From: an uncultured Bacteroidales bacterium
GTDB lineage: Bacteria; Bacteroidota; Bacteroidia; Bacteroidales; Paludibacteraceae
Direction: 5' to 3'
Length of the DNA: 64,000 nucleotides
NCBI GenBank assembly: GCA_902784585.1
Contig: CACZVM010000006.1
Coordinates: forward strand, 1 to 64,000
Position numbers and translations under genes: made by a program
Notes under the pieces: model-generated
What the model saw: the letters and a program-made list of their open reading frames with translations, nothing else
What the model was told of the DNA's origin: nothing
Databases searched by the model: none
Part shown: one piece after another, positions 4,006 through 62,513 of the stretch
Layout: every line of letters starts with the position of its first letter
How positions within the stretch are numbered: position 1 is the stretch's first letter

Positions 4006-6333
4006 TTAGTGTGCTTCAAGCCAGTTGTTGCCTACTCCACATTCGGCGATAAGAGGGATAGAGAGATGAACGGCATTCTGCATCTCCGACACCACTATCT
4101 CACGTACGCGATCCACCTCAGCAGCAGGTACGTTGAAGTTAAGTTCGTCATGTACCTGCATGATCATCTGCGCCCGGAGTTTTTCTTCTTTTAGCCGACG
4201 ATGGATGGAGACCATCGCCATCTTGATGATGTCCGCCGCCGTGCCCTGGATAGGTGCGTTGACGGCATTGCGCTCGGCGAAGGAGCGGACCGTAGCATTC
4301 TGCGAGTTGATATCCGGCAGATACCGTTTGCGACCGAAAAGCGTCTCGGCATAGCCACGCTGACGGGCCAGTTCTTTTTGTGATTCTATATATTGTATCA
4401 CGCGCGGGAATGCCGCAAAATAATCATCGATGAGCTGTTTCGCCTCGGCACGACTGCAGTCGAGTTGTTGTGCCAGACCGAAAGCCGATATACCATAGAT
4501 GATACCGAAGTTAGCCGTCTTTGCCTTTCTCCGTTGGTCTTTGGAGATTTGTTCTATGGGCAAGCCGTATATCTTCGCAGCCGTAGCCGCATGGATATCC
4601 TGTCCGGAGCGGAAGGCGGCTAACATATGTTCGTCTTGAGAGAAATGCGCCATCAGCCGTAGCTCGATCTGGCTATAGTCGGCACTGAGGAACAAGCAGC
4701 CCTCGTCAGGGATGACGGCTTGGCGGATCAGCTTGCCGCGTTCGCTGCGGATAGGTAAGTTCTGCAAGTTCGGGTTGCTACTACTGAGTCGTCCCGTAGC
4801 TGTCACGGTCTGATTGTAGGTAGTATGGATCTTACCGTCCGCCGCCATATAGCCCGGAAGCGCAGAGATGTAGGTTGAGATTAGTTTGCTGAGTGCCCGA
4901 TAGTCGAGAATAGCTCCTACCACCTCATGACGATCTTTGATCGCCACCAGCACTTCTTCGGATGTAGAATATTGTCCCGTCTTCGATTTTTTGGCCTTGG
5001 CATCGAGTTTGAGTTTGTCGAACAGCAACTCACCAACCTGCCTCGGACTATTGATATTGAACGACTCTCCGGCCAACTCATAGATCCGTTGTTCAAGTGC
5101 TTTGAGTTCTTCCGTCAGCGTAGCTTCCGCCTCCTTAAGCCGACTGACGTCAATACGCACACCAGCGGCTTCCATCTCGCGCAAGATAGGCACGAGCGGC
5201 AGTTCCACTTCGTTGTATAGATTCCAGAGGTCCGTATCAGCTTTCAGCGCTTCCCAGTTAGGCTCTTTATTGGGATTGAAGGCCACCTCGGGGTTAAGGA
5301 GATATTGACATAATCGAGCCTCGATTGTGTCATTGGTGATTGGTGATGGGTGATTGGTGATTTGAGGTTGCTCTTCCTCGAAGCCGCCGAAGAGGTCGAG
5401 TTGGTTGGGATCAGCGGGCTTAATTGGCTTACTAGGTTTACTAGACGGCCTAGGTTGACTAGGCTGCTCTGCGGGCTCTAGTTTCCTCAGCAGGGTGTTG
5501 AATTCGAGTTCACGATAGAGGGCTGCGAGGGCGTCGATATTCGGCTCTTTCTTCGACAGGAGCTCTTCATCCAACGCGATGGGCACATCGGTACGGATAG
5601 TAGCCAGAAAGCGGGAGAAACGGATCTCTTCTGTCTGGCTCTCTACTTTCTGTCGCAGAGCCCCTTTGATCTCATCTGTGCGGGCGAGCATGTTGTCAAT
5701 TGAGCCGAACTGTTGCAACAATGCTACAGCGGTCTTCTCACCTACTCCTTTGCATCCGGGGATGTTATCGCTGGCGTCGCCCATAAGTCCCAACAGGTCA
5801 ATGACTTGTGCCTGCGACTGCAGTCCGTATTTCTCGCAAACCTCTTGCGGACCGAGGATCTCAAATCCTCCAGTATGCCGCGGACGGTACATGCGCACAT
5901 GCTCGGTAACCAACTGACCGTAGTCCTTGTCCGGCGTGGCCATGAAGACCTCATAGCCGGCCTTCTCCGCTTGTCCGGAGAGCGTACCGATGACATCATC
6001 GGCTTCGAAACCATCCACTTCCAATACGGGGATGTTCATCGCCTCGAGCAGACGTTTGATGACCGGTACGGCACGGCGTATATCTTCCGGCGTCTCTTCG
6101 CGCTGCGCCTTGTATTGCTCGAATGCCTCATGACGGAACGTCGGTCCATGAGGATCGAAAGCCACACCCACGTGCGTGGGATTGACCTTGCGCAAGAGGT
6201 CGTCGAGCGTGACCACAAAGCCGAAGATGGCGGATGTATTCTCACCACGACTGTTCATGCGCGGCGTACGGATAAAAGCATAGTACGCGCGATAGATCAT
6301 CGCATAAGCATCTATTAGAAGGAGGGTCTTCAT
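4006..6333 (-). CDS. polA: DNA polymerase I lacking the 3'-5' exonuclease domain
   Basis: 775 residues, against about 930 in E. coli. The N-terminal 5' nuclease is intact (DAYAMIYRAYYAF; DGFEADDVIG; GDASDNIPGCKGVGEKTA, residues 1 to about 285). The polymerase part begins near residue 370 (ELPLVPILREMEAAGV) and has motif A DYSQIELRLMAHF, motif B around RRKAKTANFGIIYG, and motif C QVHDEL near 728. Between them lie only about 85 residues: a Ser/Pro/Lys linker with a 9-bp repeat, then ITNHPSPITND coded by a GATTGGT heptamer array (5334-5367), then a short helical remnant. The roughly 190-residue proofreading domain with its DxE motif is missing. The ATG at 6333 is chosen because it opens the conserved start MKTLLLIDAYAM; 13 extra codons upstream would overlap ung. 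Confidence 0.93.
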   Translation of the reverse strand: MKTLLLIDAYAMIYRAYYAFIRTPRMNSRGENTSAIFGFVVTLDDLLRKVNPTHVGVAFDPHGPTFRHEAFEQYKAQREETPEDIRRAVPVIKRLLEAMNIPVLEVDGFEADDVIGTLSGQAEKAGYEVFMATPDKDYGQLVTEHVRMYRPRHTGGFEILGPQEVCEKYGLQSQAQVIDLLGLMGDASDNIPGCKGVGEKTAVALLQQFGSIDNMLARTDEIKGALRQKVESQTEEIRFSRFLATIRTDVPIALDEELLSKKEPNIDALAALYRELEFNTLLRKLEPAEQPSQPRPSSKPSKPIKPADPNQLDLFGGFEEEQPQITNHPSPITNDTIEARLCQYLLNPEVAFNPNKEPNWEALKADTDLWNLYNEVELPLVPILREMEAAGVRIDVSRLKEAEATLTEELKALEQRIYELAGESFNINSPRQVGELLFDKLKLDAKAKKSKTGQYSTSEEVLVAIKDRHEVVGAILDYRALSKLISTYISALPGYMAADGKIHTTYNQTVTATGRLSSSNPNLQNLPIRSERGKLIRQAVIPDEGCLFLSADYSQIELRLMAHFSQDEHMLAAFRSGQDIHAATAAKIYGLPIEQISKDQRRKAKTANFGIIYGISAFGLAQQLDCSRAEAKQLIDDYFAAFPRVIQYIESQKELARQRGYAETLFGRKRYLPDINSQNATVRSFAERNAVNAPIQGTAADIIKMAMVSIHRRLKEEKLRAQMIMQVHDELNFNVPAAEVDRVREIVVSEMQNAVHLSIPLIAECGVGNNWLEAH
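5334..5367. repeat. Heptamer array (GATTGGT type) inside polA
   Basis: About five units (CATTGGT, GATTGGT, GATGGGT, GATTGGT, GATTTGA). On the coding strand it encodes ITNHPSPITND, a seven-residue repeat, at the point where the exonuclease domain should begin. Confidence 0.88.
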
Positions 6334-6361
6334 TATTGATGTTAGATTTAAGATTTCAAAT

Positions 6362-7024
6362 TTACCACTCAACAGGCGGCAAGCCGTGTTGGATTAGATA
6401 GTTGTTGGCAGCGCTGAAGTGTCCGCAGCCCTCAAAACCGCGATAGACAGAGAGAGGAGATGGGTGAGAGGTCTGGAGCACAAGGTTTCTGCGTCGATCG
6501 ATGAACTGCCCTTTGCGTTGAGCGTATGATCCCCAAAGCATATACACGATATGTTCTCGTTCACGATTGAGGGCGGCGATAGCCGCATCCGTCAGTTCTT
6601 CCCATCCTTTACCCTGATGGCTACCGGCACGGTGCGCTTCGACAGTCAGCGTGGCGTTGAGTAGCAGCACCCCCTGTTCCGCCCATCGACGCAGATCGCC
6701 GCTCGCAGGGATAGGCGTACCCAAATCGCGATGAATCTCTTTGTATATATTGACAAGCGAAGGCGGGATCTGCACGCCTTCGGGCACGGAGAAACTCAAT
6801 CCCATCGCTTGTCCCGGTTCGTGATACGGATCTTGTCCGATGATGACCACGCGCACTTTGTCGAAAGGGCAGGAGTCGAAGGCATTAAAAATAAGTCCTG
6901 CCGGCGGGAAGCACCGACAGGTCTTATATTGCTGGCGCACATATTGGGTGAGGAGTTCGAAATAAGGCTTGTCAAACTCCGTCTGCAATACGCGTTGCCA
7001 AGATGGGTCTATACGAACAGTCAT
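6362..7024 (-). CDS. ung: Uracil-DNA glycosylase, family 1
   Basis: 220 residues, normal length. It removes uracil from DNA in base-excision repair. The water-activating motif GQDPYH is at 63-68 (Asp65), the Phe/Asn uracil pocket region includes FNAF and LLNATLTV, and the DNA-intercalating loop HPSPLS is at 187-192. It lies 12 bases after queA and 28 bases before polA, so glycosylase and gap-filling polymerase are made from one transcript, which suits a shared repair role. Confidence 0.96.
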   Translation of the reverse strand: MTVRIDPSWQRVLQTEFDKPYFELLTQYVRQQYKTCRCFPPAGLIFNAFDSCPFDKVRVVIIGQDPYHEPGQAMGLSFSVPEGVQIPPSLVNIYKEIHRDLGTPIPASGDLRRWAEQGVLLLNATLTVEAHRAGSHQGKGWEELTDAAIAALNREREHIVYMLWGSYAQRKGQFIDRRRNLVLQTSHPSPLSVYRGFEGCGHFSAANNYLIQHGLPPVEW

Positions 7025-7036
7025 TAGTGATTGGTG

Positions 7037-16933: not shown

Positions 16934-17461
16934 TCAATTTTCGCCATTTTTTTGCCAAATTGCCATTTTTTCACCATTTTGGTGTCCAATAAAACGTGAC
17001 AAAACGAACAAGTAGTCGCTCAACCGGTTGATCCATTTCAACTCGGTCGTGGAGGCACATTCCACCATCAGTCGTTCGGCCCTTCGGCAGACCGTTCGAC
17101 AGAGATGACATCGGCACACGGTCTCACTTCCGGCAGGCAACAAAAAAGCTGTTTGTCGGGGCAATTGTGCCTGCATGGCATCGATCCATTGCTCCAGTTG
17201 CAACACATCGGATTCCACGATCCACTCTCCCGGTGCCAGACTCAAAGAAGCGCCAAGGTCAAACAGTTTGTTCTGGATCCACACCAGTTGATCATTGGTC
17301 ATTGGTAATTGGTGATTGGTCATTTGTGCACGCAGCAGTCCCACCCAACTATTGAGTTCATCCACGGTGCCATAGGCTTCGATACGGACATCTGTCTTGG
17401 GTACACGCTGACCGTTAGCCAGCGAAGTCTCTCCTTTGTCCCCTGTCTTGGTATAAATCAT
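16934..17461 (-). CDS. PduO-type cob(I)alamin adenosyltransferase
   Basis: 175 residues. It moves the adenosyl group of ATP to cob(I)alamin. The ATP site YTKTGDKGETSL is at 3-14, then YGTVDELNSWVGLL, CRTVCRRAERLM and the C-terminal LSDYLFVLSRF. Between the first and second helices a heptamer array (17293-17327) encodes MTNHQLPMTNDQL, a seven-residue repeat in a loop position. The end of the gene (AIWQKNGEN) is also built from repeated GCCATTTTT-like units. It lies 19 bases after the methyltransferase and shares its promoter. Confidence 0.93.
   Translation of the reverse strand: MIYTKTGDKGETSLANGQRVPKTDVRIEAYGTVDELNSWVGLLRAQMTNHQLPMTNDQLVWIQNKLFDLGASLSLAPGEWIVESDVLQLEQWIDAMQAQLPRQTAFLLPAGSETVCRCHLCRTVCRRAERLMVECASTTELKWINRLSDYLFVLSRFIGHQNGEKMAIWQKNGEN
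17293..17327. repeat. Heptamer array inside the adenosyltransferase gene
   Basis: Five units: CATTGGT, CATTGGT, AATTGGT, GATTGGT, CATTTGT. Its coding-strand reading gives MTNHQLPMTNDQ. Confidence 0.92.
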
Positions 17462-21893: not shown

Positions 21894-21925
21894 TAATTAC
21901 GAATTAAAAATTAAAAATTAAGAAT
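21894..21925. repeat. Heptamer array (TTAAAAA type)
   Basis: Units TTAAAAA, TTAAAAA, TTAAGAA between frdA and frdB. Confidence 0.85.
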
Positions 21926-24033
21926 TAATTCTTGTAATTACGCGTCTTCCTTTCGGTGAACTCGTAGTCGAGCGGCTCCTTGATGAGTTGGGGCTCTTTG
22001 TCCTCACCCATATATTTCCAGCAGCCTACGTACGAGAACTTATCGTCCTGACGGAGTGCCTCGCCTTCCGGTGTCTGGTATTCCTCGCGGAAGTGACCAC
22101 CGCAAGACTCCTCACGATGGAGGGCATCGACAGCCATCAGACGGCCGATCTCGATGAAGTCAGCCAGGCGGAGGGCTTTCTCCAACTCGTTGTTGAGGTG
22201 GTCAGCCGTACCCGGGATATACACGTTGGTCCAGAACTCTTTCTTGATCGCGTCGATCTTCTTGATACCTTCCTTGAGGCCCTCAGCGGTACGACCCATT
22301 CCGACGAAGTCCCACATGATGAGACCCAGCTCTTTATGGATCGAATCAACCGAACGCTTGCCCTGAATAGCCATCAGGCGGTCGATCTTGTCCTGAACAG
22401 CTTTCTCTGCCTCTGCGAACTCGGGCAGGTCGGTGGACATACGCGGTACACCAATCTGGTCGCTCAGGTAGTTCTGGATCGTATACGGCAGTACGAAATA
22501 GCCGTCTGCGAGACCTTGCATGAGGGCCGAAGCACCGAGGCGGTTTGCACCGTGGTCGGAGAAGTTGGCCTCACCGATACAGAACAGACCCTTGACGGTC
22601 GTCTGGAGCTCATAGTCTACCCAGATACCACCCATGGTGTAGTGGATAGCCGGGAAGATCATCATCGGATTCTCATACGGATCTTCGTCCACGATCTTCT
22701 CATACATCTGGAAGAGGTTACCATATTTCTGTGCTACTACGTCCTTGCCCAGACGCTGGATAGCGTCGCTGAAGTCGAGGAACACAGCCAGGCCGGTGTT
22801 GTTCACGCCGTAGCCCTTGTCGCAACGCTCCTTGGCAGCACGCGAAGCCACGTCACGCGGAACGAGATTACCGAATGCCGGATAGCGACGCTCGAGATAG
22901 TAATCGCGATCCTCTTCGGGGATGTCACGACCCTTGATCTCACCTGCTTGCAGACGCTTAGCGTCTTCGAGTTTCTTCGGAACCCAGATACGTCCATCGT
23001 TACGGAGCGACTCCGACATCAGCGTCAGCTTGCTCTGGAAGTCACCGTGCTTCGGAATACAGGTCGGGTGGATCTGTGCGTAGCAGGGGTTAGCGAAGAG
23101 GGCGCCGTGGCGGTACATCTGCATAGCAGCGGAACCGTTGCTGGCCATAGCGTTGGTCGAGAGGAAGAAGGTGTTGCCGTAGCCACCGGAACCTACAACG
23201 ACTGCGTGCGCGAAGAAGCGCTCGATGCGACCCGTAACGAGGTTACGCGCGATGATACCACGTGCACGTTGCTCGCCGTTCTCATCCTTGATGAGCACGA
23301 TGTCCAGCATCTCGTAGCGGGTGTACATCTTCACCTTGCCCTTGCCGATCTGGCGGCTCAGTGCGCTGTAAGCGCCGAGCAGCAACTGCTGACCGGTCTG
23401 ACCCTTGGCATAGAACGTACGGCTCACCTGTGCGCCACCGAAGGAACGGTTGTCGAGCAGACCGCCGTATTCGCGTGCGAAGGGAACGCCTTGTGCCACG
23501 CACTGGTCGATGATGTTATTGGATACCTCGGCGAGACGATACACGTTCGCTTCGCGAGCGCGGTAGTCACCACCCTTGATGGTGTCGTAGTACAGACGAT
23601 AAACGGAGTCGCCGTCGTTCTGGTAGTTCTTCGCAGCGTTGATACCGCCCTGCGCAGCAATCGAGTGCGCACGACGCGGCGAGTCTTGGATACAGAAGTT
23701 GAGTACGTTAAAGCCCATCTCTGCGAGGGAAGCCGCAGCCGAAGCACCGGCCAGACCCGTACCGATAACGATGACGTCCAGACGACGTTTGTTGGCGGGG
23801 TTAACGAGTTTCTGATGGTTCTTATAGTTGGTCCACTTCAACTCCAGCGGGCCCTCGGGAATCTTTGCGTCCTTCGGAGTAATCACGGGGATATTCGCCT
23901 CCTGGATTTTCTCTGCAGCGGCATTCACTACTGCTTCTGCAGCGTCCAGTGCCACCTGAGCAGCCTTAACGGCTACTTTCTTAGCGGTTTTCTTAGCCGC
24001 TTCTACTATCTCTTCAGTTTTCTTAGTTGCCAT
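21925..24033 (-). CDS. frdA: Fumarate reductase/succinate dehydrogenase flavoprotein with Lys/Ala-rich N-terminal extension
   Basis: 702 residues. It holds the covalent FAD and the dicarboxylate site: FAD-binding [17 protein letters not shown] (about 88-104), [15 protein letters not shown] with the FAD-linked His, HPTCIP, and [12 protein letters not shown]. The C-terminal part is normal ([20 protein letters not shown]). Relatives start close to the segment [16 protein letters not shown]; here about 52 more residues precede it, rich in Lys, Ala, Glu and Val ([20 protein letters not shown] and on), predicted to be one amphipathic helix and resembling histone-H1-like tails. No other Met lies before the FAD motif, so the extension is likely real. 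Confidence 0.96.
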
Positions 24034-24046
24034 AACTTTTTCAAAT

Positions 24047-24085
24047 TAAAAATTCATAATTCAAAATTCAAAATTCAAAATTATA
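24047..24085. repeat. Heptamer array (CAAAATT type)
   Basis: Units CAAAATT repeated after a TTAAAAA stretch, filling the frdC-frdA gap. Confidence 0.85.
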
Positions 24086-24773
24086 GCATAGCGATACCCA
24101 TGCCGAGGTAATACAACACAACGATTGCGAACGGAGCCACAGCCAGCGAAGCGACAATGACGCCGATCACTTTGATACGCTTCATCCAAACGAGGTTGTT
24201 CCAACCGATGGTGTGCAATGCCGACCAAACGCCGTGACGAAGATGGAACCAGAGTGCGCAGAGCCAGATGAGGTAGAGCACACAGTAGATCTGGCCGCTA
24301 ACGGGAGTGGTGAACAGGGCGATCACATAGGAAGCGCCATCTTGCGGATCAAACGCACCAGCGGTAGCACCGTGCGTGATCTCAGCCAGCTGCATGCGGA
24401 ACCAGAAGTTGTAGAGGTGGAGCACCAGAAAACCGATAACGATAATACCCAGCACGAGCATGTTCTCCGATTCCCATTCCACGCCTTCTTTCTTACCCGT
24501 TACCGCATAGCGGTCGTTACCACGCGCTGCACGGTTTTGGATGGTCAGATAGATGGCATAGCTGAAATGCACCAATACCAAGAAAGCCAGACCAAGGGTG
24601 CCGACGAGGGCATACCAGTTAGCTCCCAGCAAACGACAAATCGTGTTGTAGGCCTCTTCCGAGAAAACCACAGCCAGGTTCATACAGCCGTGGAAAAGCA
24701 GGAAGAAGACCAACGCGAGGCCGCTAATCGACATAACGAATTTACGGCCGATAGAAGAGTCTTTTAACCACAT
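24081..24773 (-). CDS. frdC: Fumarate reductase/succinate dehydrogenase cytochrome b subunit
   Basis: 230 residues, five membrane helices with several His residues placed for two b hemes (LFHGCMNLAV, LVHFSYAIY, LVLHLYNFWFRMQ, ALWFHLRHGVWSALHTIGW). It anchors FrdAB and oxidises menaquinol. The start ATG 24773 (MWLKDSSIGRKFVMSISG) is chosen because it opens the conserved region and lies downstream of the promoter; 21 further open codons upstream lie in the leader. Confidence 0.95.
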   Translation of the reverse strand: MWLKDSSIGRKFVMSISGLALVFFLLFHGCMNLAVVFSEEAYNTICRLLGANWYALVGTLGLAFLVLVHFSYAIYLTIQNRAARGNDRYAVTGKKEGVEWESENMLVLGIIVIGFLVLHLYNFWFRMQLAEITHGATAGAFDPQDGASYVIALFTTPVSGQIYCVLYLIWLCALWFHLRHGVWSALHTIGWNNLVWMKRIKVIGVIVASLAVAPFAIVVLYYLGMGIAML

Positions 24774-24854
24774 AAATAGTGAATTGTTAATAATGAATAA
24801 TGAATATTTTATTGTAATCGTTTCAAATTGGAACAAGTGTTTTTCATTCCGGCT

Positions 24855-24887
24855 GCAAAGTTACTACAAAAATTGCATATATGCAAA
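24855..24887 (-). promoter_or_regulatory. Promoter of the frdCAB operon
   Basis: Minus strand: TTTGC at 24883-24887, 19 bases, TAACTTTGC at 24855-24863. The -33 region overlaps a palindrome TTGCATATATGCAA (24873-24886), a possible regulator site. Confidence 0.8.
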
Positions 24888-24892
24888 TTTTT

Positions 24893-24925
24893 TTTGCGTA
24901 TTTCAAAAAAAAGCAGTAATTTTGC
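24893..24925 (+). promoter_or_regulatory. Promoter of the DUF59 gene
   Basis: TTTGC at 24893-24897, 19 bases, TAATTTTGC at 24917-24925. The ATG follows only 14 bases later (24940), so the leader is about ten bases at most. Confidence 0.82.
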
Positions 24926-24939
24926 AGCCGATTTGCGTT

Positions 24940-25254
24940 ATGAACGAGTTTTTAGAGAAAGAAGAAGCCATACTCAAGATGCTCAAGACCGTGTTTGATC
25001 CGGAGATTCCGGTGAATGTTTACGACCTTGGGCTGATCTACGGCATTGAGTTGAAAGACGACGGTGTATGCGATATCACGATGACGCTGACTGCGCCATC
25101 TTGTCCGGCGGGCGATTTCATCGTAGAAGACATCCGCCAGAAAGTAGGTAGTGTGGAAGGCGTGAAGGACGTGAACGTACAACTGGTGTTTGAGCCCGAG
25201 TGGACCAAAGACATGATGTCGGAAGAAGCAAAATTGGAACTGGGGTTCCTGTGA
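24940..25254 (+). CDS. DUF59/MIP18 family iron-sulfur assembly protein
   Basis: 104 residues. The DUF59 fold is marked by DPEIPVNVYDLGLIYGIEL and MTLTAPSCPAGDFI with the conserved Cys55. Members (SufT, Mrp N-domain, MIP18) help put Fe-S clusters into target proteins; this one is a stand-alone SufT-like form. The frame is open farther upstream, but that part is promoter DNA, so ATG 24940 is the start. It is divergent from the Fe-S-rich fumarate reductase operon, which is suggestive but not proof of a link. Confidence 0.9.
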   Translation: MNEFLEKEEAILKMLKTVFDPEIPVNVYDLGLIYGIELKDDGVCDITMTLTAPSCPAGDFIVEDIRQKVGSVEGVKDVNVQLVFEPEWTKDMMSEEAKLELGFL

Positions 25255-25358
25255 TTGGTGATTGGTGATTGGTGATTGGTAATTGGTAATTGGAGATAGG
25301 TGCCCCTTCCGTCTAGGGTTTCCCCGCTAACGGGGACACCGTCAGGTAATTGGTGATT
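25252..25358. repeat. Heptamer array (GATTGGT/AATTGGT) interrupted by hairpin element copy C
   Basis: Several GATTGGT and AATTGGT units from 25252 to about 25292, then the hairpin element (25301-25340), then AATTGGT GATT again. GGTAATTGG occurs on both sides of the interruption. Confidence 0.85.
25301..25340. repeat. Dispersed hairpin element, copy C
   Basis: TGCCCCTTCCG, 5 bases, GGGTTTCCCCG, CTAA, CGGGGACACC; stem CCCCG/CGGGG at 25322-25335. Same block order as copy A (2913-2957). It ends 22 bases before the lpxH ATG. Confidence 0.75.
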
Positions 25359-25362: not shown

Positions 25363-26151
25363 ATGATATATTTTTTGAGTGACGCCCATCTGGGTAGTTG
25401 GGCCATGGAGCGCGGTTATGCGCAGCAGAAGAAATTGATCGACATGCTGGAGATGATGAGCAAGGATGCCGTCTCCATCTATATGTTGGGTGATATGTTT
25501 GATTTCTGGATGGAATATTTCATCCACGACAAGCAGAAACACCAATATTCGCCGTTTTTCAAAGAGATCAGGAAACTGGTTAAGCAGGGAATCCACGTAC
25601 ATATGTTTGTCGGCAATCACGACATGTGGACCTTCGGCGGCATAGAGAAACTATGCGGTGCGGAAGTACACTATGAGCCCTGCACCATCATCCGTTACGG
25701 CAGGTCACTCTACCTGAGTCACGGCGACGGACTGATGCCGGAAAAATGGGAACAGCTCTACACCGTCAGGGAGAAGAAGCAGATCAGACGATTTATGAAA
25801 CTGCGCAAGATATTCCAGAGTCCGTTCCTGCAGTTCTGTTTCCGCTGCCTGCCACCGGCCTGGGGCAACAAGTTAGGCTACGGATGGGCCAAGCGCAGCC
25901 GCGAGAAGGAATTGGCCAACCCCTGTCCGTACAAAGGCGAGAACAAAGAGGAACTGGTGCTCTTCGCCAAAGAGCAGGAGAAACTGAACAACCACCGCGA
26001 TTACTACCTGTTCGGCCATCGGCATATCGAACTGGATCTGCAACTGGAGACCGGCAGTCGCGTCCTTATCCTGGGTGACTGCTTCCGCCAGTGGACCTAC
26101 GCCAAACTGGACCATCACGGCGTGCTGACGATGCACAACTATGAGAATTAA
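25363..26151 (+). CDS. lpxH: UDP-2,3-diacylglucosamine pyrophosphatase (LpxH-like)
   Basis: 262 residues, calcineurin-like phosphoesterase fold. Metal ligands lie in DAHLG (Asp7, His9), GDMFDFW, GNHDMW, SHGDG and GHRH. LpxH removes UMP from UDP-2,3-diacylglucosamine in lipid A synthesis at the membrane surface. Length and the FDFW/GNHD pattern match the Bacteroidota LpxH form. It lies downstream of the DUF59 gene without a clear promoter of its own, behind a heptamer array and a hairpin. Confidence 0.9.
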   Translation: MIYFLSDAHLGSWAMERGYAQQKKLIDMLEMMSKDAVSIYMLGDMFDFWMEYFIHDKQKHQYSPFFKEIRKLVKQGIHVHMFVGNHDMWTFGGIEKLCGAEVHYEPCTIIRYGRSLYLSHGDGLMPEKWEQLYTVREKKQIRRFMKLRKIFQSPFLQFCFRCLPPAWGNKLGYGWAKRSREKELANPCPYKGENKEELVLFAKEQEKLNNHRDYYLFGHRHIELDLQLETGSRVLILGDCFRQWTYAKLDHHGVLTMHNYEN

Positions 26152-26275
26152 GAATTCAAAATTCAAAATTCATAATTAAGAATTCAAAATTCTTATCCCC
26201 AAAGGGGAACGATTATTTCAAAATTCAAAATTAAGAATTCAAAATTAAGAATTCAAAGTTCAAAATTCAAAGTTA
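26152..26275. repeat. Long heptamer array (CAAAATT/TTAAGAA) with internal CCCC/GGGG hairpin
   Basis: About 120 bases of CAAAATT, CATAATT, TAAGAATT and CAAAGTT units between lpxH and mazG. At 26195-26206 the array is broken by TCCCC-aaa-GGGGA, a reduced relative of the dispersed hairpin element. Confidence 0.88.
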
Positions 26276-27135
26276 TGCATACAAGGGAAGAACAGCTGAA
26301 GGCGTTCGGGCGGCTGCTGGACATCATGGATGACCTGAGGGAAAAATGTCCATGGGACAGAAAGCAGACTTTCGACAGTCTGCGCCAGAACACCATCGAG
26401 GAGACATATGAGTTGGCGACAGCCATCAGCAGGCAGGACATGAACGAGATATGCAAAGAACTCGGAGATGTGCTGCTGCACGTGGTTTTCTACGCGAAGA
26501 TGGGAAGCGAAACGAAAGAGTTTGACATAGCCGATGTATGCAACCGAATATGCGACAAGTTGATTTTCCGTCATCCGCACGTGTACGGGACACAGACCGC
26601 TTCGCTGACAGAAGACAGACCGGCTTCGCCTGACAGAGTACAGACAGCTGATGATGTCAGCCATCTATGGGAGCAGGTGAAGCTGAAGGAAAAGGGCGGC
26701 AACAAGACCGTGCTGGGCGGCATTCCCGACAGTCTGCCAAGCCTCGTCAAGGCCTATCGGATACAGGACAAAGTGGCCAATGTAGGCTTCGACTGGGAGA
26801 AGAGAGAGGATGTATGGGAGAAAGTGAAGGAAGAGATCAGGGAGTTCGAGGAAGAACTCCGAAAGAATGATGAAATGAGCGCTTCGCTCAATGGTGACGC
26901 TTCTCTTAATGATGGAATCACAGCGGAGTTTGGAGATTTGCTGTTCGCGCTGATCAATGCCGCGCGCCTATATAAAATCAAGCCGGACAATGCGCTGGAA
27001 CAGACGAATCTGAAGTTCATTCGGCGTTTTAATTACTTAGAAGCGGAGGCTAAAAAGCAGGGTAAGGAACTGAAAGAGATGACGCTGGAGGAGATGGACG
27101 CACTATGGAACGAGGCGAAGAGAGGGGAAAATTAA
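26275..27135 (+). CDS. mazG: Nucleoside triphosphate pyrophosphohydrolase MazG
   Basis: 286 residues, two MazG domains. It cleaves (d)NTPs to NMP and pyrophosphate for pool cleaning. Motifs are CPWDRKQTFDSLRQNTIEETYE, ELGDVLLHVVFYAK and, in the second domain, EFGDLLFALINAARL. It is longer than the usual 260-270 because of two low-complexity inserts: TEDRPASPDRVQT (from repeated GACAGA) in the linker and NDEMSASLNGDASLNDG just before the second metal-binding helix. Reading frame is kept through both. Confidence 0.93.
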   Translation: MHTREEQLKAFGRLLDIMDDLREKCPWDRKQTFDSLRQNTIEETYELATAISRQDMNEICKELGDVLLHVVFYAKMGSETKEFDIADVCNRICDKLIFRHPHVYGTQTASLTEDRPASPDRVQTADDVSHLWEQVKLKEKGGNKTVLGGIPDSLPSLVKAYRIQDKVANVGFDWEKREDVWEKVKEEIREFEEELRKNDEMSASLNGDASLNDGITAEFGDLLFALINAARLYKIKPDNALEQTNLKFIRRFNYLEAEAKKQGKELKEMTLEEMDALWNEAKRGEN

Positions 27136-27172
27136 AAATTCAAAATTCAAAATTCAAAATTCAAAATTAAAC
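27133..27172. repeat. Heptamer array (CAAAATT type)
   Basis: Four to five CAAAATT units directly after the mazG stop, before the tRNA-Leu terminator. Confidence 0.88.
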
Positions 27173-27386: not shown

Positions 27387-27419
27387 GCAAAGGTACTGCT
27401 TTTTTTTGAATTATGCAAG
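27387..27419 (-). promoter_or_regulatory. Promoter of tRNA-Leu
   Basis: Minus strand: CTTGC at 27415-27419, 19 bases with an A-run and GCAG, TACCTTTGC at 27387-27395. It overlaps the first codons of the divergent M16 peptidase gene (27413). Confidence 0.82.
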
Positions 27420-51884: not shown

Positions 51885-51918
51885 AGAATTAAAAATTAAA
51901 AATTATAAATTACGAATT
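51885..51918. repeat. Heptamer array (TTAAAAA type)
   Basis: Units TTAAAAA, TTAAAAA, TTATAAA, TTACGAA in the gap between the RND permease and the P-II-like gene. Confidence 0.85.
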
Positions 51919-54900
51919 TTCTTTTTTCACCTTGAGATCCATGAAGATAAACTTCTTGCGGAGTGCTTCCTGCTTGTTGCGATCCCCATGTTTGGTCATC
52001 GAGCCATAGAGCACGGGGACGATGAAGAGCGTGAGGAAGGTGGAGATCGTCAGACCGCCGATGACGACGATACCGAGGGGCTGCCACATCTCTGCGCCTT
52101 CACCTTTGCTGACTGCCATCGGGATCATACCTAAGATGGTGGTGAAAGCCGTCATGAGCACAGGGCGCAGACGGGAGCGACCGGACATCTGGATAGCGTC
52201 ATTGAGCGCATATCCGCGTTCGCGCATCAGGTTGATATAGTCCACGAGCACGATACCGTTCTTCACCACAATACCGATCAGCAGTACGACACCGAGGGCA
52301 CCGACCATATCGAGTGAACGACCTGCTATCCACAGGGCAATAACCACACCCGAGAGGGCGAAAGGCACCGAGAACATGATGATGGCAGGCATACGAAGCG
52401 ACTCGAACTGCGAAGCCATCACGATATATACAAGCAGTACGATCAGGACAGCCAGCAGAACCATGTCTCTGAAGGTATCCTGTTGATCCTCATAACTACC
52501 GCCGAGGTGTACCGTATAACCGGTAGGCAGATCCAGCTGCGGCAAGACGTTTGCCTCTACCTGTTTAGCCAATTCACCCAAAGAGGTGTTGTACGGAGTG
52601 ACGCTGACGGTGACAATACGCTGACGTGCCTTACGCTCGATGGTAGGCGGTGCCCAGTATTCACCGATAGAAGCTACTTCGGAGAGTTTGACCTGTTTGC
52701 CGGTAGCCGTAGGAATAGTCATGTCCAGAACGGCGGAGATGGAGTTACGGTCTTCTTCCTGCAAACGAACCACGATATCGTATTCCGATCCGTCTTCCTT
52801 GAGGTAACCGCAAGCCATACCGGACACACGGTTTCGCAAGTAAGTGGAGATAGTAGCGGAACTGAGTCCGAGACGCGATGCTTTCTCTTTATCCACGGTG
52901 ATCTTGATATCCGGACGGTCATCCTGACGGCTGATCTTCACGTCACGGGCTCCGGGCAGCGTTGCGCTTAACTTACGGCACTGCTCTGCCAAAGAGGAGG
53001 TGAGGTCGAAATCATAACCGTAGATCTCGATATCCACCGAGTTATTACCCATACCGCCGTAACCGGAGGTGGTACACTGGTACTCAATGACTTCCGGATG
53101 ACGGCTCATCTCCTGACGCAGGGTCTCGGCTATCTGCCAAACGCTTTGATCACGTTTCCATTTCTTAGGCAGACGGATCGTCATCTGGATCGTGTTGTTC
53201 ATCGTGGAGGAGAACATAGCGGAGATAGTAGCCTCGTCGTTCGAACCGGCAGAGGTGTTGATCACCTCGATGCAAGGTACGAGTTCCAAGAAACGTGCCT
53301 CCAGTTTGCGGGCAGTCTTGAGGGTCTCCTCAATACGCGTACCGCGTTGTAACTTGATGTTCACCGTCAGACGGGCATTATCCTGTTCCTGCATGAAGTC
53401 CGTACCGATCTTGCCCATGAAGAAAGGCAGCATCGACACTACGAAGAACGCCAACAGCACGGTAAAGGTAATGAACTTGTTGTTCAGACACCAACCTAAC
53501 ATTTTTGCATACGCCTCATCGATCTTATCCAACAGATGAACGACAGTACGGTCGTACCAACTCTTCTTGCCTGCCTCATCCTCCACGAGGTTACCGTTCT
53601 CATCCACATGCACTTTCTTTGCTTTGAGCAGCTTGGAGCAGAGCATCGGAGTCAGAGAGATAGCTACTACGGTCGAAGTACAGCAAACGATGGTAACAAT
53701 CCATCCCAGTTCTTTGAACATGATACCTGCCATACCGGGAAGCATCGTCATCGGCACAAATACCGCTACGAGCACAAGGGTTGTGGCTATGACGGATACC
53801 CATACCTCGTTGGTGGCATAGATAGATGCCTCGTGCGGATCTTCACCACGTTCGATATGTCGGGTGATATTCTCCAGCACCACAATCGCATCATCCACCA
53901 CCATACCGATAGCGATAGTCAACGAACAGAGGGATATGATGTTGATCGAAGAGTCAGCCAAACCGAGGTAGATAAATGCCACAATGAGGGCAATAGGAAT
54001 CGTGATACCGATGATGATGGTAGCGCGCCATTTGCCGAGGAAGAAGAGTACCACGAGTACCACGAAGAGAAGGGCATAACCGATGGACTCCTCTAGCGAA
54101 TTGATGGAGTTTTGGATGTTCTCCGAACTCTCGAAGATCTCCTCGATCTTCACGTCGGCAGGTAACTGTTTCTGTATCTTTGCCAATTCCTTCTTGATAT
54201 CACGGCAGACCTTCACGGTGTTGGCTCCGGTCTGTTTGGAAACCACCAGACGGACAGACTCGCGTCCGTTGGTCTTCTCATCCAGAGTCAGGTCCTTGAT
54301 GGTATCTTTCACCGTCGCGATGTCGCGGATGAAGACCTGCTGACCTTGCGGAGTCATCGCTACCATCAGGTTGCCGATCTCGGAGGACTCCAAGTACTCC
54401 GAACGAACCTGCATCTGATATTGCTCCTGAGGCATCTTGATCGTACCGGAAGAGAGATTGAGGTTATTCGCTGCCACTACGTTTCCGACCTGCTCCAACG
54501 TGATACCATAGGCATCGAGTTTCTGCTGGTCGATATCGACATATACATATCGGTCCGGCGAACCGGAGAGAGAGAGGTTACCGATACCGTCCACTTGGTT
54601 GAGCTGCGGGATGACCTCGTCGTTGAGGATCTTGTCCAGACCCGGGTAGGTCTCGTCTGCCGTGATGGAGTACATACATACCGGCATAGAGGACGTCGAG
54701 AGTTTGAAGATCATCGGCGTTCCGCAGTTGTCCGGCAGGTTGTTCTTGGTCATATCGACAAACGAACGCACATCATTCACTGCCTCGTCCATGTTCGAAC
54801 CCCATTCCAGCTGAAGAGTGACCATGGAGAGATTGTCCTTGGATTGCGATGTGATATGCTTCAAGTGATCCACCGAGGTGAGGGCGTTCTCCATGTACTT

Positions 54901-55092
54901 GGTCACGTTCGTCTCTATCTCAGAAGCGGATGCTCCCGGGTAAGTCGTCATCACCGTGATGTACGGAGGATCCATTTCCGGGAACTGGTCAATCGGCAGT
55001 CTAAGGAAACTAAAGATACCGATAATAATGACCGCAATGAAGATCAGGGCGGTCGTTACCGGCTTTTCAATCGCTGTTTTGTATATTGCCAT
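51910..55092 (-). CDS. RND efflux transporter, inner membrane permease
   Basis: 1060 residues, the AcrB/MexB-like hydrophobe-amphiphile efflux layout: twelve helices and two large periplasmic loops. Seen are FLRLPIDQFPEMDPPYITVMTTYPGASASEIETNVT near the start, the proton-relay pair in GMVVDDAIVVLENI (TM4, about residue 405), and the C-terminal GVVLLIGIVVKNGIVLVDYIN and RLRPVLMTAFTTILGMIPMA. It exports toxic compounds with the adaptor and TolC genes that precede it. Confidence 0.96.
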   Translation of the reverse strand: MAIYKTAIEKPVTTALIFIAVIIIGIFSFLRLPIDQFPEMDPPYITVMTTYPGASASEIETNVTKYMENALTSVDHLKHITSQSKDNLSMVTLQLEWGSNMDEAVNDVRSFVDMTKNNLPDNCGTPMIFKLSTSSMPVCMYSITADETYPGLDKILNDEVIPQLNQVDGIGNLSLSGSPDRYVYVDIDQQKLDAYGITLEQVGNVVAANNLNLSSGTIKMPQEQYQMQVRSEYLESSEIGNLMVAMTPQGQQVFIRDIATVKDTIKDLTLDEKTNGRESVRLVVSKQTGANTVKVCRDIKKELAKIQKQLPADVKIEEIFESSENIQNSINSLEESIGYALLFVVLVVLFFLGKWRATIIIGITIPIALIVAFIYLGLADSSINIISLCSLTIAIGMVVDDAIVVLENITRHIERGEDPHEASIYATNEVWVSVIATTLVLVAVFVPMTMLPGMAGIMFKELGWIVTIVCCTSTVVAISLTPMLCSKLLKAKKVHVDENGNLVEDEAGKKSWYDRTVVHLLDKIDEAYAKMLGWCLNNKFITFTVLLAFFVVSMLPFFMGKIGTDFMQEQDNARLTVNIKLQRGTRIEETLKTARKLEARFLELVPCIEVINTSAGSNDEATISAMFSSTMNNTIQMTIRLPKKWKRDQSVWQIAETLRQEMSRHPEVIEYQCTTSGYGGMGNNSVDIEIYGYDFDLTSSLAEQCRKLSATLPGARDVKISRQDDRPDIKITVDKEKASRLGLSSATISTYLRNRVSGMACGYLKEDGSEYDIVVRLQEEDRNSISAVLDMTIPTATGKQVKLSEVASIGEYWAPPTIERKARQRIVTVSVTPYNTSLGELAKQVEANVLPQLDLPTGYTVHLGGSYEDQQDTFRDMVLLAVLIVLLVYIVMASQFESLRMPAIIMFSVPFALSGVVIALWIAGRSLDMVGALGVVLLIGIVVKNGIVLVDYINLMRERGYALNDAIQMSGRSRLRPVLMTAFTTILGMIPMAVSKGEGAEMWQPLGIVVIGGLTISTFLTLFIVPVLYGSMTKHGDRNKQEALRKKFIFMDLKVKKENS

Positions 55093-56111: not shown

Positions 56112-56152
56112 ATAATTATTAATTCTTAATTCTTAATTTTTAATTTTATTTG
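56112..56152. repeat. Heptamer array (TTCTTAA/TTTTTAA type)
   Basis: TTAATTC, TTAATTC, TTAATTT-type units in the gap between TolC and adaptor genes; it runs up to the tolC stop codon. Confidence 0.8.
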
Positions 56153-57504: not shown

Positions 57505-57541
57505 TTTCTTTTCACCTTTCACTTTTCACCTTTCACCTTTC
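57505..57541. repeat. Heptamer array (TTTCACC type)
   Basis: TTTCACC, TTTCACT, TTTCACC, TTTCACC, TTTCAAA between tetR and tolC; the last units overlap the tetR stop and encode its final Lys-Gly-Glu-Arg. Confidence 0.88.
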
Positions 57542-58134
57542 AAATATAGTGCCAAACCTTCCTCGGAGAGAATACCGCGAACGAGGATGTCCATCGCCGT
57601 ATGTCCGAGTTGGTGCATGTTATGATTCGCCTCTAACTCTTCTATGTCGCGGATCGCACTGATATAAATACGAGCAAAAATAAGTGACGTTAATTCTATA
57701 TTAAGGTTCGCGCGCACGAGACCCTGCTCCACACCCTGCTCGATATACTGCGTCAAATAACGTTTGTGCATCTCAAAACACTCTGCCTGAAAATCCGCAA
57801 ACTGACGAGGGTAGTATTTCTTGAGGTCAAAGACCAACTGAGGTACACGACGTACGTCGTTCTTCTCTGCTGCCTGCCGTTTGATAAACAGCTTCACGAT
57901 CTGCCGAAAATCATTCAACTTCAGCAGCTCCTCCATCTTCGTACTCATGTACTTCAGGTTAGCCTGTAACATCTGCTCAATCAGTTCATCCTTTGACGCA
58001 AAATAAACGTAGAATGTCTTCTTCGACATGCCGAGTTCATGACAGATATCATCTATCGAAACACTACGGATACCAAGGCGAAAGAACATCTCGCCTGCCG
58101 TCTGGATAATATGATTTTTCTGGTCTTCCGACAT
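57526..58134 (-). CDS. TetR/AcrR-family repressor of the RND operon
   Basis: 202 residues. The N-terminal helix-turn-helix is plain (FRLGIRSVSIDDICHELGMSKKTFYVYFASKDELIEQML, about 18-55); the helical ligand domain ends at LILVRG-like ILVRGILSEEGLALYLKGER. First gene of the operon tetR-tolC-adaptor-RND-P-II, so it probably represses its own transcript and is released by pump substrates. An inverted repeat at 58191-58222 is a candidate operator. Confidence 0.93.
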   Translation of the reverse strand: MSEDQKNHIIQTAGEMFFRLGIRSVSIDDICHELGMSKKTFYVYFASKDELIEQMLQANLKYMSTKMEELLKLNDFRQIVKLFIKRQAAEKNDVRRVPQLVFDLKKYYPRQFADFQAECFEMHKRYLTQYIEQGVEQGLVRANLNIELTSLIFARIYISAIRDIEELEANHNMHQLGHTAMDILVRGILSEEGLALYLKGER

Positions 58135-58222: not shown

Positions 58223-58255
58223 GTGACAATAAAAAATGACTTATAAAAGAAAATA

Positions 58256-59612: not shown

Positions 59613-59614
59613 GG

Positions 59615-59890: not shown

Positions 59891-59910
59891 AATCTAACGG
59901 CAGAAAACTG

Positions 59911-60204: not shown

Positions 60205-61733
60205 ACACAGCAATCCTAATCGTGATTAGTGCAGTCTGCGGCCTAGCATTAGGCTCCGGACTCTACTACCTCATCGCTCGCATCATCGGCGGCGGCATCA
60301 TCCGCAAGGCCACTGAGGAGGCAGAGATGGTGAAGAAGAACAAGATTGTTGAGGCAAAAGAGAAATTCATCGCCCTGAAGTTGGAGCACGACAATACTGT
60401 ACGTGAGCAGGACAAACGCATGCAGCAACAAGAGCAGCGTCTGCAGCAACGTGAGCAACAACTCAACCAGCGCCAGGGTGACGTACAACGCAGCCTCAAC
60501 GAAGTGAATCAGAAGATGCAGCAGGTGGAACAGCGCCAACAGGCCCTGGACTACAAGCAGCAAGAAGTGGAACGTCTGCACCATGAGGCAGAGAAACAAC
60601 TGGAACAACTTAGTGGCATGTCGGCCGAAGAGGCCAAGAAGCAACTGGTGGAGACCCTGAAGGACGAAGCCAAGACAGCCGCCATGAGTTACGTGAACGA
60701 GATCATGGATAACGCCCGTCTGGAGGCCAATCGCGAGGCGAAGAAGATCATCATCCAGACCATCCAACGCGTATCGTCGGAGACAGCGGCAGAGAGCACC
60801 GTCTCCGTCTTCCACATCGAGAACGACGAAGTGAAAGGTCGTATCATCGGCCGTGAGGGACGTAACATCCGCGCCTTGGAAGCCGCTACCGGAGTGGAGA
60901 TCGTAGTGGACGACACGCCGGAAGCCATCACGCTCTCCGCCTTCGATCCCGTTCGTCGTGAGATAGCTCGTCTGGCCTTGCATCAGTTGGTACAAGACGG
61001 ACGTATCCACCCCGCCCGCATCGAAGAGGTGGTAGCGAAAGTGACCAAACAGGTGGAAGAAGAGATCATCGAGGTGGGCAAACGTACCACTATCGACCTC
61101 GGTGTTCACGGTTTGCACCCCGAACTGGTACGTCTGGTAGGTAAGATGAAGTACCGTTCGTCCTATGGACAGAACCTGCTGCAGCACAGCCGCGAGACCG
61201 CCAACCTGTGTGCCGCGATGGCAGGCGAACTGGGCCTGAACGTCAAGGCAGCAAAACGTGCCGGACTGCTGCACGACATCGGTAAAGTAGCCGACGATGA
61301 TGTCGAGTTGCCGCACGCCGAACTGGGCATGAAGCTTTGCGAGAAATACGGCGAGAAACCCGATATATGCAATGCCGTAGGCGCCCACCACGACGAGTGT
61401 GAGATGAAGAGTCTGATTGCACCTATCGTACAGGCCTGCGACGCCATCTCCGGTGCCCGCCCCGGTGCCCGCCGCGAGATCGTAGAGAGCTACGTGAAAC
61501 GACTGAACGACCTGGAGAACATGGCGATGTCCTTCCCCGGCGTAGTGAAGACCTATGCCCTGCAGGCAGGTCGCGAACTGCGCGTCATTGTGGGTGCTGA
61601 CAAAATCAGCGACAAAGACACCGAACTGCTCTCGTTCGACCTGGCCAAACGTATCCAGGACGAGATGACCTACCCCGGACAGATCAAGGTGACCGTCATC
61701 CGTGAGGTACGCGCCATCAATGTGGCGAAATAA
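60201..61733 (+). CDS. rny: Ribonuclease Y
   Basis: 510 residues. N-terminal membrane helix (about 3-25), a long Gln/Glu-rich coiled coil (about 40-190), KH domain ([40 protein letters not shown]) and HD domain with metal ligands ([40 protein letters not shown]). A membrane-bound endoribonuclease that starts mRNA decay. Confidence 0.96.
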
Positions 61734-61734
61734 C

Positions 61735-61763
61735 GTTTAGCGTTTAACGTTTAGAGATTAGAG
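61735..61763. repeat. Heptamer array (GTTTAGC type)
   Basis: GTTTAGC, GTTTAAC, GTTTAGA, GATTAGA between the convergent rny and trmN6 genes. Confidence 0.85.
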
Positions 61764-62513
61764 ATAGAACTCTTGGCAGAGTTCGGAATAGGCGGCGGAA
61801 CGGCCGCCTGTTTCGTTTTCCAGAATGAGCGTGTCCTCGCAGATTTCAAATCCACTACCGGTGTTTTTTGATTTCTCAAATGCCATCAGTACCCGCTTGG
61901 CAGATTTGCCTGCCTTCGAATAGACGCGCGTCAGATGGGTCAGACGCAGGCCGTTTGCCGCTGCCAGCGTCCGTACCTGCTGCTCGGTTTCCGCGGGCAG
62001 GATCAGAGCGAGTTGGCCGTCCTCACGCAGCAGACGCACACAGTGCGTGATCAGTTCTTCGTACGACAGACTATCTGTATGGCGCGCCAACTCACGAGCC
62101 TTGTCGGGGTTCTTGAGAGAGTTCTGGAAATACGGAGGATTGGAGACGACTATGTCGTATTGATGAGAGGTGATTGGTGATTGGTGATTGGGCCAATCCT
62201 GCAAGGAAGAGCAGAAAGCAGAAAGTTGAGAACTGAATGCTGAATGCTCAAAATTCTCACGGGCCTGCTCCACCGCCGCTTCGTCGATGTCGATGGCATC
62301 TATATGCGCCATCGGAAAACGTTGAGCAAGCATCAGCGCAATGAGTCCAGAGCCTGTTCCTACGTCTAAGACAGATCCGACATCTTCTCGTGATTGTCTC
62401 GATAAAGTCTCGATAGTTTTTCCGGCCCAAGCACCCAAAAGGACACCGTCGGTGCCTACCTTCATCGCGCAACGACTATCCTCTACAAAAAATTGTTTGA
62501 ACCGAAACGACAC
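61758..62513 (-). CDS. trmN6: tRNA1(Val) adenine-37 N6-methyltransferase with repeat-derived inserts
   Basis: 251 residues. It methylates A37 of tRNA-Val. SAM motif VLDVGTGSGLIALMLAQRF, catalytic VVSNPPYFQNSL (NPPY), and family start FRFKQFFVEDSRCAMKVGTDGVLLGAWA. Two places carry repeat DNA: GKTIETLSRQSREDVGS before the SAM motif (contains the 17-base core shared with the M16 insertion) and HSAFSSQLSAFCSSLQDWPNHQSPITSHQ before NPPY (two different heptamer arrays). Both are in loops and keep the frame, so activity is plausible but uncertain. Confidence 0.9.
   Translation of the reverse strand: MSFRFKQFFVEDSRCAMKVGTDGVLLGAWAGKTIETLSRQSREDVGSVLDVGTGSGLIALMLAQRFPMAHIDAIDIDEAAVEQARENFEHSAFSSQLSAFCSSLQDWPNHQSPITSHQYDIVVSNPPYFQNSLKNPDKARELARHTDSLSYEELITHCVRLLREDGQLALILPAETEQQVRTLAAANGLRLTHLTRVYSKAGKSAKRVLMAFEKSKNTGSGFEICEDTLILENETGGRSAAYSELCQEFYL
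62171..62250. repeat. Two adjoining heptamer arrays inside trmN6
   Basis: GATTGGT x3 at 62172-62192, then on the coding strand GCATTCA x2, GTTCTCA, ACTTTCT, GCTTTCT, GCTCTTC over 62209-62250. All units are 7 bp. Confidence 0.85.
62396..62412. repeat. 17-base repeat core inside trmN6
   Basis: GTCTCGATAAAGTCTCG, identical to 28214-28230 in the M16 peptidase repeat, in the opposite orientation relative to the coding strand. Confidence 0.9.

Follow-up and report, generated by a model that had tools for sequence, protein, structure and literature searches.

Selfish-looking repeats accepted in frame into proteins are known from the Rickettsia palindromic elements, the units of which are longer and palindromic. 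Among short tandem repeats (STRs), an excess of heptamers in bacteria has been published (PMC4679880, PMC4692102), and the accessible text of PMC4679880 describes heptamers inside open reading frames (ORFs) as giving heptapeptides, where one of the strands is forbidden. The TAACTGA repeats treated in that text occur in Beggiatoaceae, Cyanobacteria and five Bacteroidetes; binding of a regulator is proposed for them, and the binding of CspB to heptads is cited (PMC4679880). In the accessible parts of two further papers, a high genic STR density is given for Bacteroidota (PMC12699852), and repeats with units of 4-11 bases are given as normal or weakly over-represented in prokaryotes (PMC4060949). 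In the present analysis, heptamer arrays were studied in a 64-kb stretch of DNA, the window, which comprises positions 1 to 64,000 of contig CACZVM010000006.1 from an uncultured Bacteroidales bacterium of the Paludibacteraceae (assembly GCA_902784585.1, here G000), and in further stretches of this genome and of its relatives. The arrays are heptameric STRs, which are unusually dense in one Bacteroidales lineage and lie in genes as well as in spacers. The best overall explanation, which is probably correct, combines heptamer repeats of a known kind, a filter imposed by genes, and a conjectural building process.

In the window, GATTGGTGATTGGT with at most one mismatch occurs 10 times, where 0.03 occurrences are expected, and ATTGGTNATTGGT occurs 9 times against an expectation of 0.02. 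The preliminary description of this DNA had reported in-frame GATTGGT arrays in PolA, in an ATP:cob(I)alamin adenosyltransferase (CobAT) and in TrmN6, and the sequence scan confirmed all three; array coordinates refer to the plus strand throughout. The polA array at 5331..5358, the gene being on the minus strand (ORF 4006-6372), consists of four NATTGGT units, one of which is degenerate (CATTGGT.GATTGGT.GATGGGT.GATTGGT), and encodes ITNHPSPITND. The CobAT array at 17293..17320 (ORF 16934-17461) has the NATTGGT units CATTGGT.CATTGGT.AATTGGT.GATTGGT, that is, N = C, C, A and G, and encodes MTNHQLPMTNDQ. In trmN6 (61758-62513), 3.3 exact GATTGGT units at 62169..62191 encode PNHQSPIT upstream of an NPPY motif. 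The MTNHQ repeat reported for a DUF4886 protein is present as two units at 3437..3450 (GATTGGT.CATCGGT); the second unit is degenerate, the site lies outside the interval given for the repeats, and it is too weak on its own.

The constant feature of the arrays is the period. Exact runs of at least 10 matches were counted in 435 kb of G000, consisting of the window and 20 stretches chosen around GATTGGT matches, and the expectation was taken from five simulated copies. At period 7, 107 runs were found against 0.6 expected, while each of the periods up to 30 that are not multiples of 7 gave 0-19 runs; period 11 gave 19 (0.2 expected), period 15 gave 9 (0.6 expected), and the remaining non-multiples up to 20 gave 0-7. 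The same preference was found in coding sequence (CDS). In a pool of ten genomes, which G000 entered only through stretches not picked by matches, period 7 had the most runs wholly within called CDS of all periods from 4 to 21, namely 79, compared with 17 at period 6, 8 at period 9, 22 at period 12, 23 at period 15 and 20 at period 18; the multiples 14 and 21 gave 53 and 41. In the 12 unpicked stretches of G000 (197 kb), 33 arrays were found, 21 of which lie wholly within called genes. Among seven congeners sampled at 169-200 kb each, the lowest array density was 0 (G028) and the highest 13.5 per 100 kb (G006), and thinner samples of G016 and G067 gave 3.5 and 5.4 per 100 kb. The G028 sample, stretches L314-L323, held no heptamer array in 200 kb. 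No arrays were present in 100 and 62 kb, respectively, of two genomes from other families of the order.

The sequence of the unit, in contrast to its length, is variable. The first array sample of G000, i.e., the window and the 20 GATTGGT-chosen stretches, contained 89 arrays headed by 29 different units, among which TAACTGA is absent, and 97 units were found over all sampled genomes. The commonest units in G000 are AATCACC (equal to GATTGGT), AATTCAC, AAAATTC and AAGAATT. A shared consensus across the 97 units was considered and rejected: it reached 4.10 bits, whereas 40 shuffles had a mean of 3.68 and a maximum of 4.01; this slight excess was obtained with 20 random starts for the real set and 6 for each shuffle, which favours the real set. 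The period rather than the sequence is therefore the main constraint. GATTGGT as the universal unit of G000 was likewise rejected, as it heads, in exact form, 1 of the 33 arrays in the unpicked stretches against 29 of the 89 in the GATTGGT-chosen sample including the window. Its doublets occur on 10 of the 21 contigs of G000, 39 of them in the forward and 17 in the reverse direction. The unit on which the preliminary description had concentrated is thus one among many.

Inside genes, the behaviour of an array is determined by the relation between the unit and the codon. Because a seven-base unit does not divide into whole codons, all frames of a given strand yield one and the same heptapeptide cycle, and only the total length and the strand matter; the earlier statement that three heptamers equal seven codons was borne out. 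GATTGGT in the sense direction holds TGA, and its complement reads (TNHQSPI)n. Among 84 pooled arrays of at least 21 bp within CDS, the unit is open only in sense in 56, only in antisense in 7, on both strands in 15 and on neither in 6, while of the 93 arrays of this length that lie outside CDS or extend beyond it, 36 have units with stops on both strands, 28 and 26 are open on one or the other, and 3 are open on both. It is likely that genes act as a filter on the arrays, and the lower array density in CDS than outside also speaks for this. Such a filter would require that the net change in length be a multiple of 3, which at a site already filled with units amounts to 21 bp or three units, that the strand read without stops, and that the site tolerate the added residues. 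To judge from the sequences, arrays which pass the filter would ride along as near-neutral loop filler and be translated.

The proteins which carry arrays include many conserved enzymes. Thirty of them were compared with NCBIfam, namely 28 of the 29 array genes outside the window in the first sample and two window genes; the scan covered first-sample genes only. Matches above the family cut-off named leucyl-tRNA synthetase (LeuRS), phenylalanyl-tRNA synthetase beta (PheT), IspG, UvrA, TsaB, MiaA, TrmO, aspartate kinase, thioredoxin reductase, CinA, NrdG, a Do-family protease, a glutamate synthase fusion and a type I pullulanase; a CCA-adding enzyme matched below its family cut-off, and 4 of the 30 had no NCBIfam family at the E-values used. 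Several of these hosts are essential in other bacteria. The preliminary description had seen a spacer-type repeat being accepted into essential proteins; the in-frame presence in conserved proteins holds, but the repeat is not confined to spacers, as the 21 of 33 arrays wholly in genes indicate.

The positions of the arrays in these proteins are consistent with tolerant sites. The match of PolA to Taq polymerase ends at residue 306 and restarts at residue 373, where the array lies in between, and hence between the 5' nuclease and Klenow-like parts. In alignments with Protein Data Bank entries, a gap is found at the array in CobAT (3 residues, 36zl), TrmN6 (4 residues, 7wm6) and LeuRS (9 residues, 1h3n), and these gaps, together with the position in PolA, support tolerant sites as far as alignments can indicate. 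The array of thioredoxin reductase aligns without a gap, an 8-residue gap being located some residues before it, and this array seems to replace sequence instead of adding to it. Alignment of the window proteins with relatives also showed that the array sites vary in length. The earlier claim that all arrays are at loop positions therefore stands as far as length-variable positions are concerned; the loop structure as such is unsupported, as the single-sequence AlphaFold model of CobAT had a mean predicted local distance difference test score of 37.8 and was discarded.

The same sites were compared in relatives, with one genome per species. Among the matches listed, DNA similarity places Bacteroidales bacterium UBA3843 (77% over 3.5 kb) and Paludibacteraceae bacterium RGIG6859 (80% over 668 bp) closest of the named organisms, and by this measure the genus probably belongs in or near Paludibacteraceae. 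Homologues were found among 61 genomes for PolA in 59, CobAT in 56, TrmN6 in 60, some of these being distant methyltransferase matches only, and DUF4886 in 35. For each of the four proteins, the 30 loci listed were aligned, and 115 of the 120 linkers were readable, including the four of G000 itself. With an array defined as at least 16 of 21 matches at lag 7, arrays were found in 16 of the 115 linkers, 3 of them in G000; the other lags from 3 to 13 gave 0-2, and codon shuffles gave 0.0 at lag 7. The units in these linkers are AATCACC, AAATCAC, AATCGTC and AAATGTC at the TrmN6 site, GCCAACA, GGTTACG and AGCGGTG at the CobAT site, and AACGACC, AACGGCT and a CCCGTMA-like unit at the PolA site; at the DUF4886 site, arrays of other units were found by the same definition in three congeners. 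As a refuting case, the preliminary description had named relatives with the same residues but no DNA repeat. At the four sites, the array-bearing relatives mostly have other residues, encoded by other heptamers; TrmN6 of L062 has much the same residues as that of G000, and the DNA repeat is also there, while in TrmN6 of L072 the residues SNHQ match over a short stretch, but no period-7 run underlies them.

For 56 of the 110 in-CDS arrays of all samples, a homologue covering the array position was present in a different sampled species or locus, and several of these homologues carry an array of a different unit at the matching place. A loop of a protein recognised by eye as DXS-like contains GGGTTAC in G000 and CAATGGA in G026, and the loop of a carboxypeptidase-like protein contains different units in three species. 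The copy number of the arrays also differs between species; in an RlmB-like protein, the arrays of G000 and G003, which belong to one unit family, differ by exactly 7 residues.

The favoured unit depends on the species, as shown by exact whole-genome counts of doublets, in which overlapping doublets within one array were each counted. GATTGGT doublets, counted in 61 genomes, were found in 26, with 56 in G000, 23 in G003, 12 in G032, 10 in G006 and none in G026. The other units were counted in 29 genomes each: AATGGAC doublets reached 37 in G035, 21 in G004, 18 in G002, 18 in G032 and 13 in G026; AATCGTC doublets reached 35 in G002 and 19 in G067; and AACTCAT doublets reached 10 in G014 with at most 2 elsewhere, where each of these three units had 0 in G000. 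Reversed-pattern controls gave 2 (G026), 4 (G045) and 0 (G000) in the GATTGGT search, and 0 for the other units except 1 in G002 (AATGGAC) and 2 in G027 (AATCGTC). G026, although its PolA is the most similar of all (89% identity), has no GATTGGT doublet; the favoured units therefore change between close species. In the sampled stretches, pairs of arrays share the unit more often within than between species (0.0193 against 0.0070, permutation p 0.001), also when only units with at least two G/C are considered (0.0202 against 0.0105, p 0.028), and the whole-genome doublet counts are the better evidence of the two.

The unit of the NATTGGT family in G000 has an internal anatomy, in which a six-base core, ATTGGT, is joined to one free base. 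In 35 GATTGGT arrays with 200 in-register units, 46 of the 65 single substitutions are at position 1, while positions 2-7 have 0, 3, 2, 4, 7 and 3. When one position was freed at a time in arrays of at least three units, freeing position 1 gave 44 arrays, 37 of them mixed at that position, and freeing any other position gave 12-17 arrays, 0-5 of them mixed. Mixing at position 1 occurs in 16 of 21 arrays in CDS and in 21 of 23 outside, and mixing at the other positions in 0-4 of 8-13 in CDS and 0-1 of 4-5 outside. As the base is free both in and out of genes, codons are not the cause.

Beyond this lineage, at least 113 stretches contain an exact match to 19 bases of (GATTGGT)3; 39 of those listed are cyanobacterial, several from one genome, and the others listed come from Saprospiraceae, Chitinophagales, Xanthomonadaceae, rumen and horse gut Bacteroidales assemblies and further phyla. 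The first match lies in an ORF of at least 200 residues in 32 of the 113 listed stretches, in an ORF of 100-199 residues in 13, and in neither in 68. Position 1 is most often mixed in the 39 cyanobacterial loci (24/45, with 14/34 at position 7) and in 14 other Bacteroidales loci (7/12), while 45 loci of other phyla favour position 7 (17/41, with 8/38 at position 1), and 15 other Bacteroidota loci have no prominent position; the free base as a general rule was thus rejected. Neighbouring units of the cyanobacterial arrays are alike in 166 of 215 cases against 94 expected, as duplication would give, and simple duplication fits these arrays better than those of G000. For other units of the lineage, the samples are small: 11 of 12 variations are at one position in G035, mostly in one array, and 4 of 5 in G067, while they are spread over positions in G014 and G006, and hardly any occur in G002 and G004. 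The concentration in one column over the pooled non-NATTGGT arrays (z 12.5) was set aside as evidence, as duplication of a mutated unit could give it.

As for how the arrays are built, template switching linked to replication, with a 7-nt step and primed by the six-base core, could be responsible, and copying between sites would then spread one unit through a genome; we hold this part of the explanation only tentatively. Several points weigh against the combined explanation, beginning with the free base itself. Neighbouring units in G000 have an equal free base in 62 of 161 cases, where 58.3 are expected if they are independent; simple duplication of units predicts like neighbours, and duplication alone therefore leaves this independence unexplained. 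That variation is confined to one column, in genes as well as outside, points to recognition of the remaining six bases by some factor, and neutral slippage fails to explain this confinement. In the flanks of 37 arrays, no target site or duplication marking an insertion was seen; the flank information reached no more than 0.63 bits per position, at positions into which degenerate units extend, and no search for a transposase was made. On the side of the filter, the unit has a stop in sense in 13 of the 84 in-CDS arrays, which presumably are imperfect, too short for an in-frame stop or miscalled. Genes were called with a home-made dicodon script, and start sites are uncertain. The density of 0.046 arrays per kb of CDS against 0.433 per kb outside, with 72 of 141 arrays wholly in CDS and 69 not, gives an inflated depletion ratio, because arrays partly overlapping a gene were scored as outside CDS. 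Finally, compared with the best homologue, some of these being distant with identity down to 28%, the array-bearing protein is longer in 33 of 56 cases, equal in 10 and shorter in 13, and the zero or negative differences indicate that arrays are often, not always, net insertions. Any account of building must meet the independent free base of G000.

The main rival on the building step is recognition of the core by a binder. Here, the arrays would be binding sites, in which a protein or RNA chaperone reads the six-base core at a 7-bp pitch; selection would keep the core while the seventh base drifts, and in-gene arrays would be used as sites or tolerated. This would account for the single free column across independent arrays of G000 in and out of CDS, for the independence of the free bases of neighbours, and for the same column being most often mixed in the cyanobacterial and other Bacteroidales loci, and regulator binding to heptads has the precedent of the proposal for TAACTGA and the cited CspB binding in the accessible text of PMC4679880. 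However, the favoured unit differs between close species, with 0 GATTGGT and 13 AATGGAC doublets in G026 against 56 and 0 in G000, so that many sites and the binder would need to change jointly. The 29 units in 89 arrays of one genome, the preference for position 7 in other phyla and for none in other Bacteroidota, and the placement in enzyme genes, in which no regulatory logic is seen, are also unfavourable, and we consider binding sites unlikely.

The second alternative is plain replication slippage on chance seeds and nothing else, where the 7-bp step comes from the footprint of the polymerase, as proposed by Mrazek and colleagues according to PMC4692102. The constant period and the many units are as expected from slippage; when the non-NATTGGT arrays are pooled, adjacent units agree at the variable base in 343 of 644 cases against 268.4 expected, and the excess at periods 11 and 15 might also be given by general slippage. 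Yet a single genome carries one unit at dozens of unrelated places while its neighbours hardly have it, the free bases of NATTGGT units in G000 are not shared by neighbouring units, and a single added unit shifts the frame, so that stepwise growth inside genes is blocked. As a complete account, plain slippage is improbable to a similar degree.

Two more elaborate possibilities were considered. Each unit could consist of a six-base core that is recognised or copied and one base that is not, and an activity devoted to array building, advancing by seven bases and using a core particular to the species, would then write arrays across the genome and rewrite the same loops with a new core after speciation; we regard this as quite unlikely, although, if true, essential enzymes would carry a readable record of the current core of their species. 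A mobile or writer system, similar to a reverse transcriptase or telomerase, would insert arrays from a short template plus one untemplated base, and the core with its free base, the species-specific units, and the occurrence on both strands and in unrelated genes agree with it. Nevertheless, neither a target-site duplication nor a flank consensus was seen at the 37 arrays, and one genome has many units, which makes a writer very improbable. An artefact of assembly or binning, or chance similarity, can be dismissed in spite of an assembly that is 79% complete in 21 contigs, as the chance expectation is about 0, the reversed-pattern controls are 0 in G000, and arrays lie at the same loops in several separately assembled species.

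The window contains further heptamer arrays. A GATTGGT/AATTGGT array at 25251..25302 lies directly 3' of gene 24784-25254, and its first unit provides the TGA stop at 25252-25254. Two short heptamer runs of trmN6, AGCAGAA (62210-62225) and CTGAATG (62233-62248), lie near the GATTGGT array and together span 62210..62248. At the 5' ends of ORFs, where the start sites are uncertain, (AGTTGAA)4.3 at 3939..3968 gives the N-terminal LSTFNFQLST of the DUF4886 ORF, and (AATAATG)2.6 at 24789..24806 lies in ORF 24081-24836. A compound AGAATTC / TTCAAAA array (26144..26271) starts at the end of gene 25363-26151 and reaches as far as the gene that follows, and an AAAATTC array (27128..27168) covers the end of gene 26275-27135 and continues past it. 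Three arrays, AAATTCA (24043..24082), TAATTCT (56113..56147) and AATTAAA (21902..21928), each lie between two minus-strand genes, the last touching the end of one of its two genes; a second AATTAAA array (51887..51912) lies between genes and touches the end of ORF 51910-55092. A TTTCACC array (57510..57542) lies over the boundary of two minus-strand genes, at the called start of one and the end of the other.

Repeats of other kinds were also observed. Apart from multiples, the periods most in excess in the 435 kb, 7, 11 and 15, are spaced by four bases each. Period 11 is the commonest after 7 and its multiples, and 16 of its 19 runs are outside genes; in the window, an array of an 11-bp unit at 28150-28252 lies inside a protease-like ORF (27413-28807), where 33 bp equal 11 codons, the same logic at another period. 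Closely similar elements of 15-bp period, TATATATAC, were found at four places of G000 (L122:19154-19179, L124:8375-8401, L131:15537-15562 and L342:1028-1055). Three degenerate copies of a 46-bp unit containing GCCCCTTCCG lie at 2797-2933, and these ten bases recur right after the 25251-25302 array, perhaps as a second spacer repeat.

The significance of the arrays lies in the fact that repeats which break the frame are expected to be purged from genes, and yet period 7 exceeds 6, 9, 12, 15 and 18 in coding DNA. The lineage provides natural replicates, that is, many congeners with different units at the same loops, and the question why bacterial short repeats favour seven bases thereby becomes testable. 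Models of array building are constrained by the free base, which in G000 varies independently between neighbouring units. For protein biology, the arrays mark the spots where core enzymes tolerate foreign sequence, and in annotation such heptapeptides should be given no meaning as functional motifs absent other evidence. The observation on which the preliminary description was based is thus confirmed, and its interpretation is partly supported only, the unit, the confinement to spacers and the comparison with Rickettsia having been revised.

Among the best literature matches, from a search to which most subscription papers were not open, no paper on in-gene heptamers of Bacteroidales was found. 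Relative to the literature found, a lineage with arrays in core enzymes, species units at the same loops, and the anatomy of core plus free base appear to be new. The arrays resemble the Rickettsia palindromic elements, with which they had first been compared, in their in-frame presence inside conserved proteins; however, GATTGGT is a short, non-palindromic heptamer, the reverse complement of which, ACCAATC, differs from it, and by inspection it has no run able to fold into a hairpin. The heptamer arrays in the accessible text of PMC4679880 are the nearer relative. There, the TAACTGA repeats are likewise tandem heptamers at many loci in unrelated phyla, give a heptapeptide (LSVISYQ) in ORFs, and have one strand with stops in all frames while the other is tolerated in proteins. 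They differ, in the same text, in having one fixed unit, one-base variants of which rarely or never form direct repeats, and in lying mostly in intergenic DNA near start codons, those inside ORFs being found chiefly at the ends of proteins or in short hypothetical ones; in the lineage of G000, units are numerous and preferred differently by different species, one base is free, and core enzymes contain arrays. The GGGAATC / GGGGAYT heptamers of Xanthomonas and Nostoc, according to the accessible part of PMC4692102, are similar in occurring throughout the genome, in 2-26 copies (Xcc) of a unit that is degenerate in part, but they are rich in G, have the potential to form quadruplexes and lie mostly between genes (intragenic shares of 11% and 7% in the two Xanthomonas), and the main units of the G000 lineage are not G-run repeats. 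The tandem repeats of Bacillus, as given in the accessible part of PMC8161180, share a constant period, a species-specific sequence and several families per species; their periods are 52 or 20-21 nt and their large families lie outside protein genes, whereas the arrays of G000 have a period of 7 nt and are often in genes.

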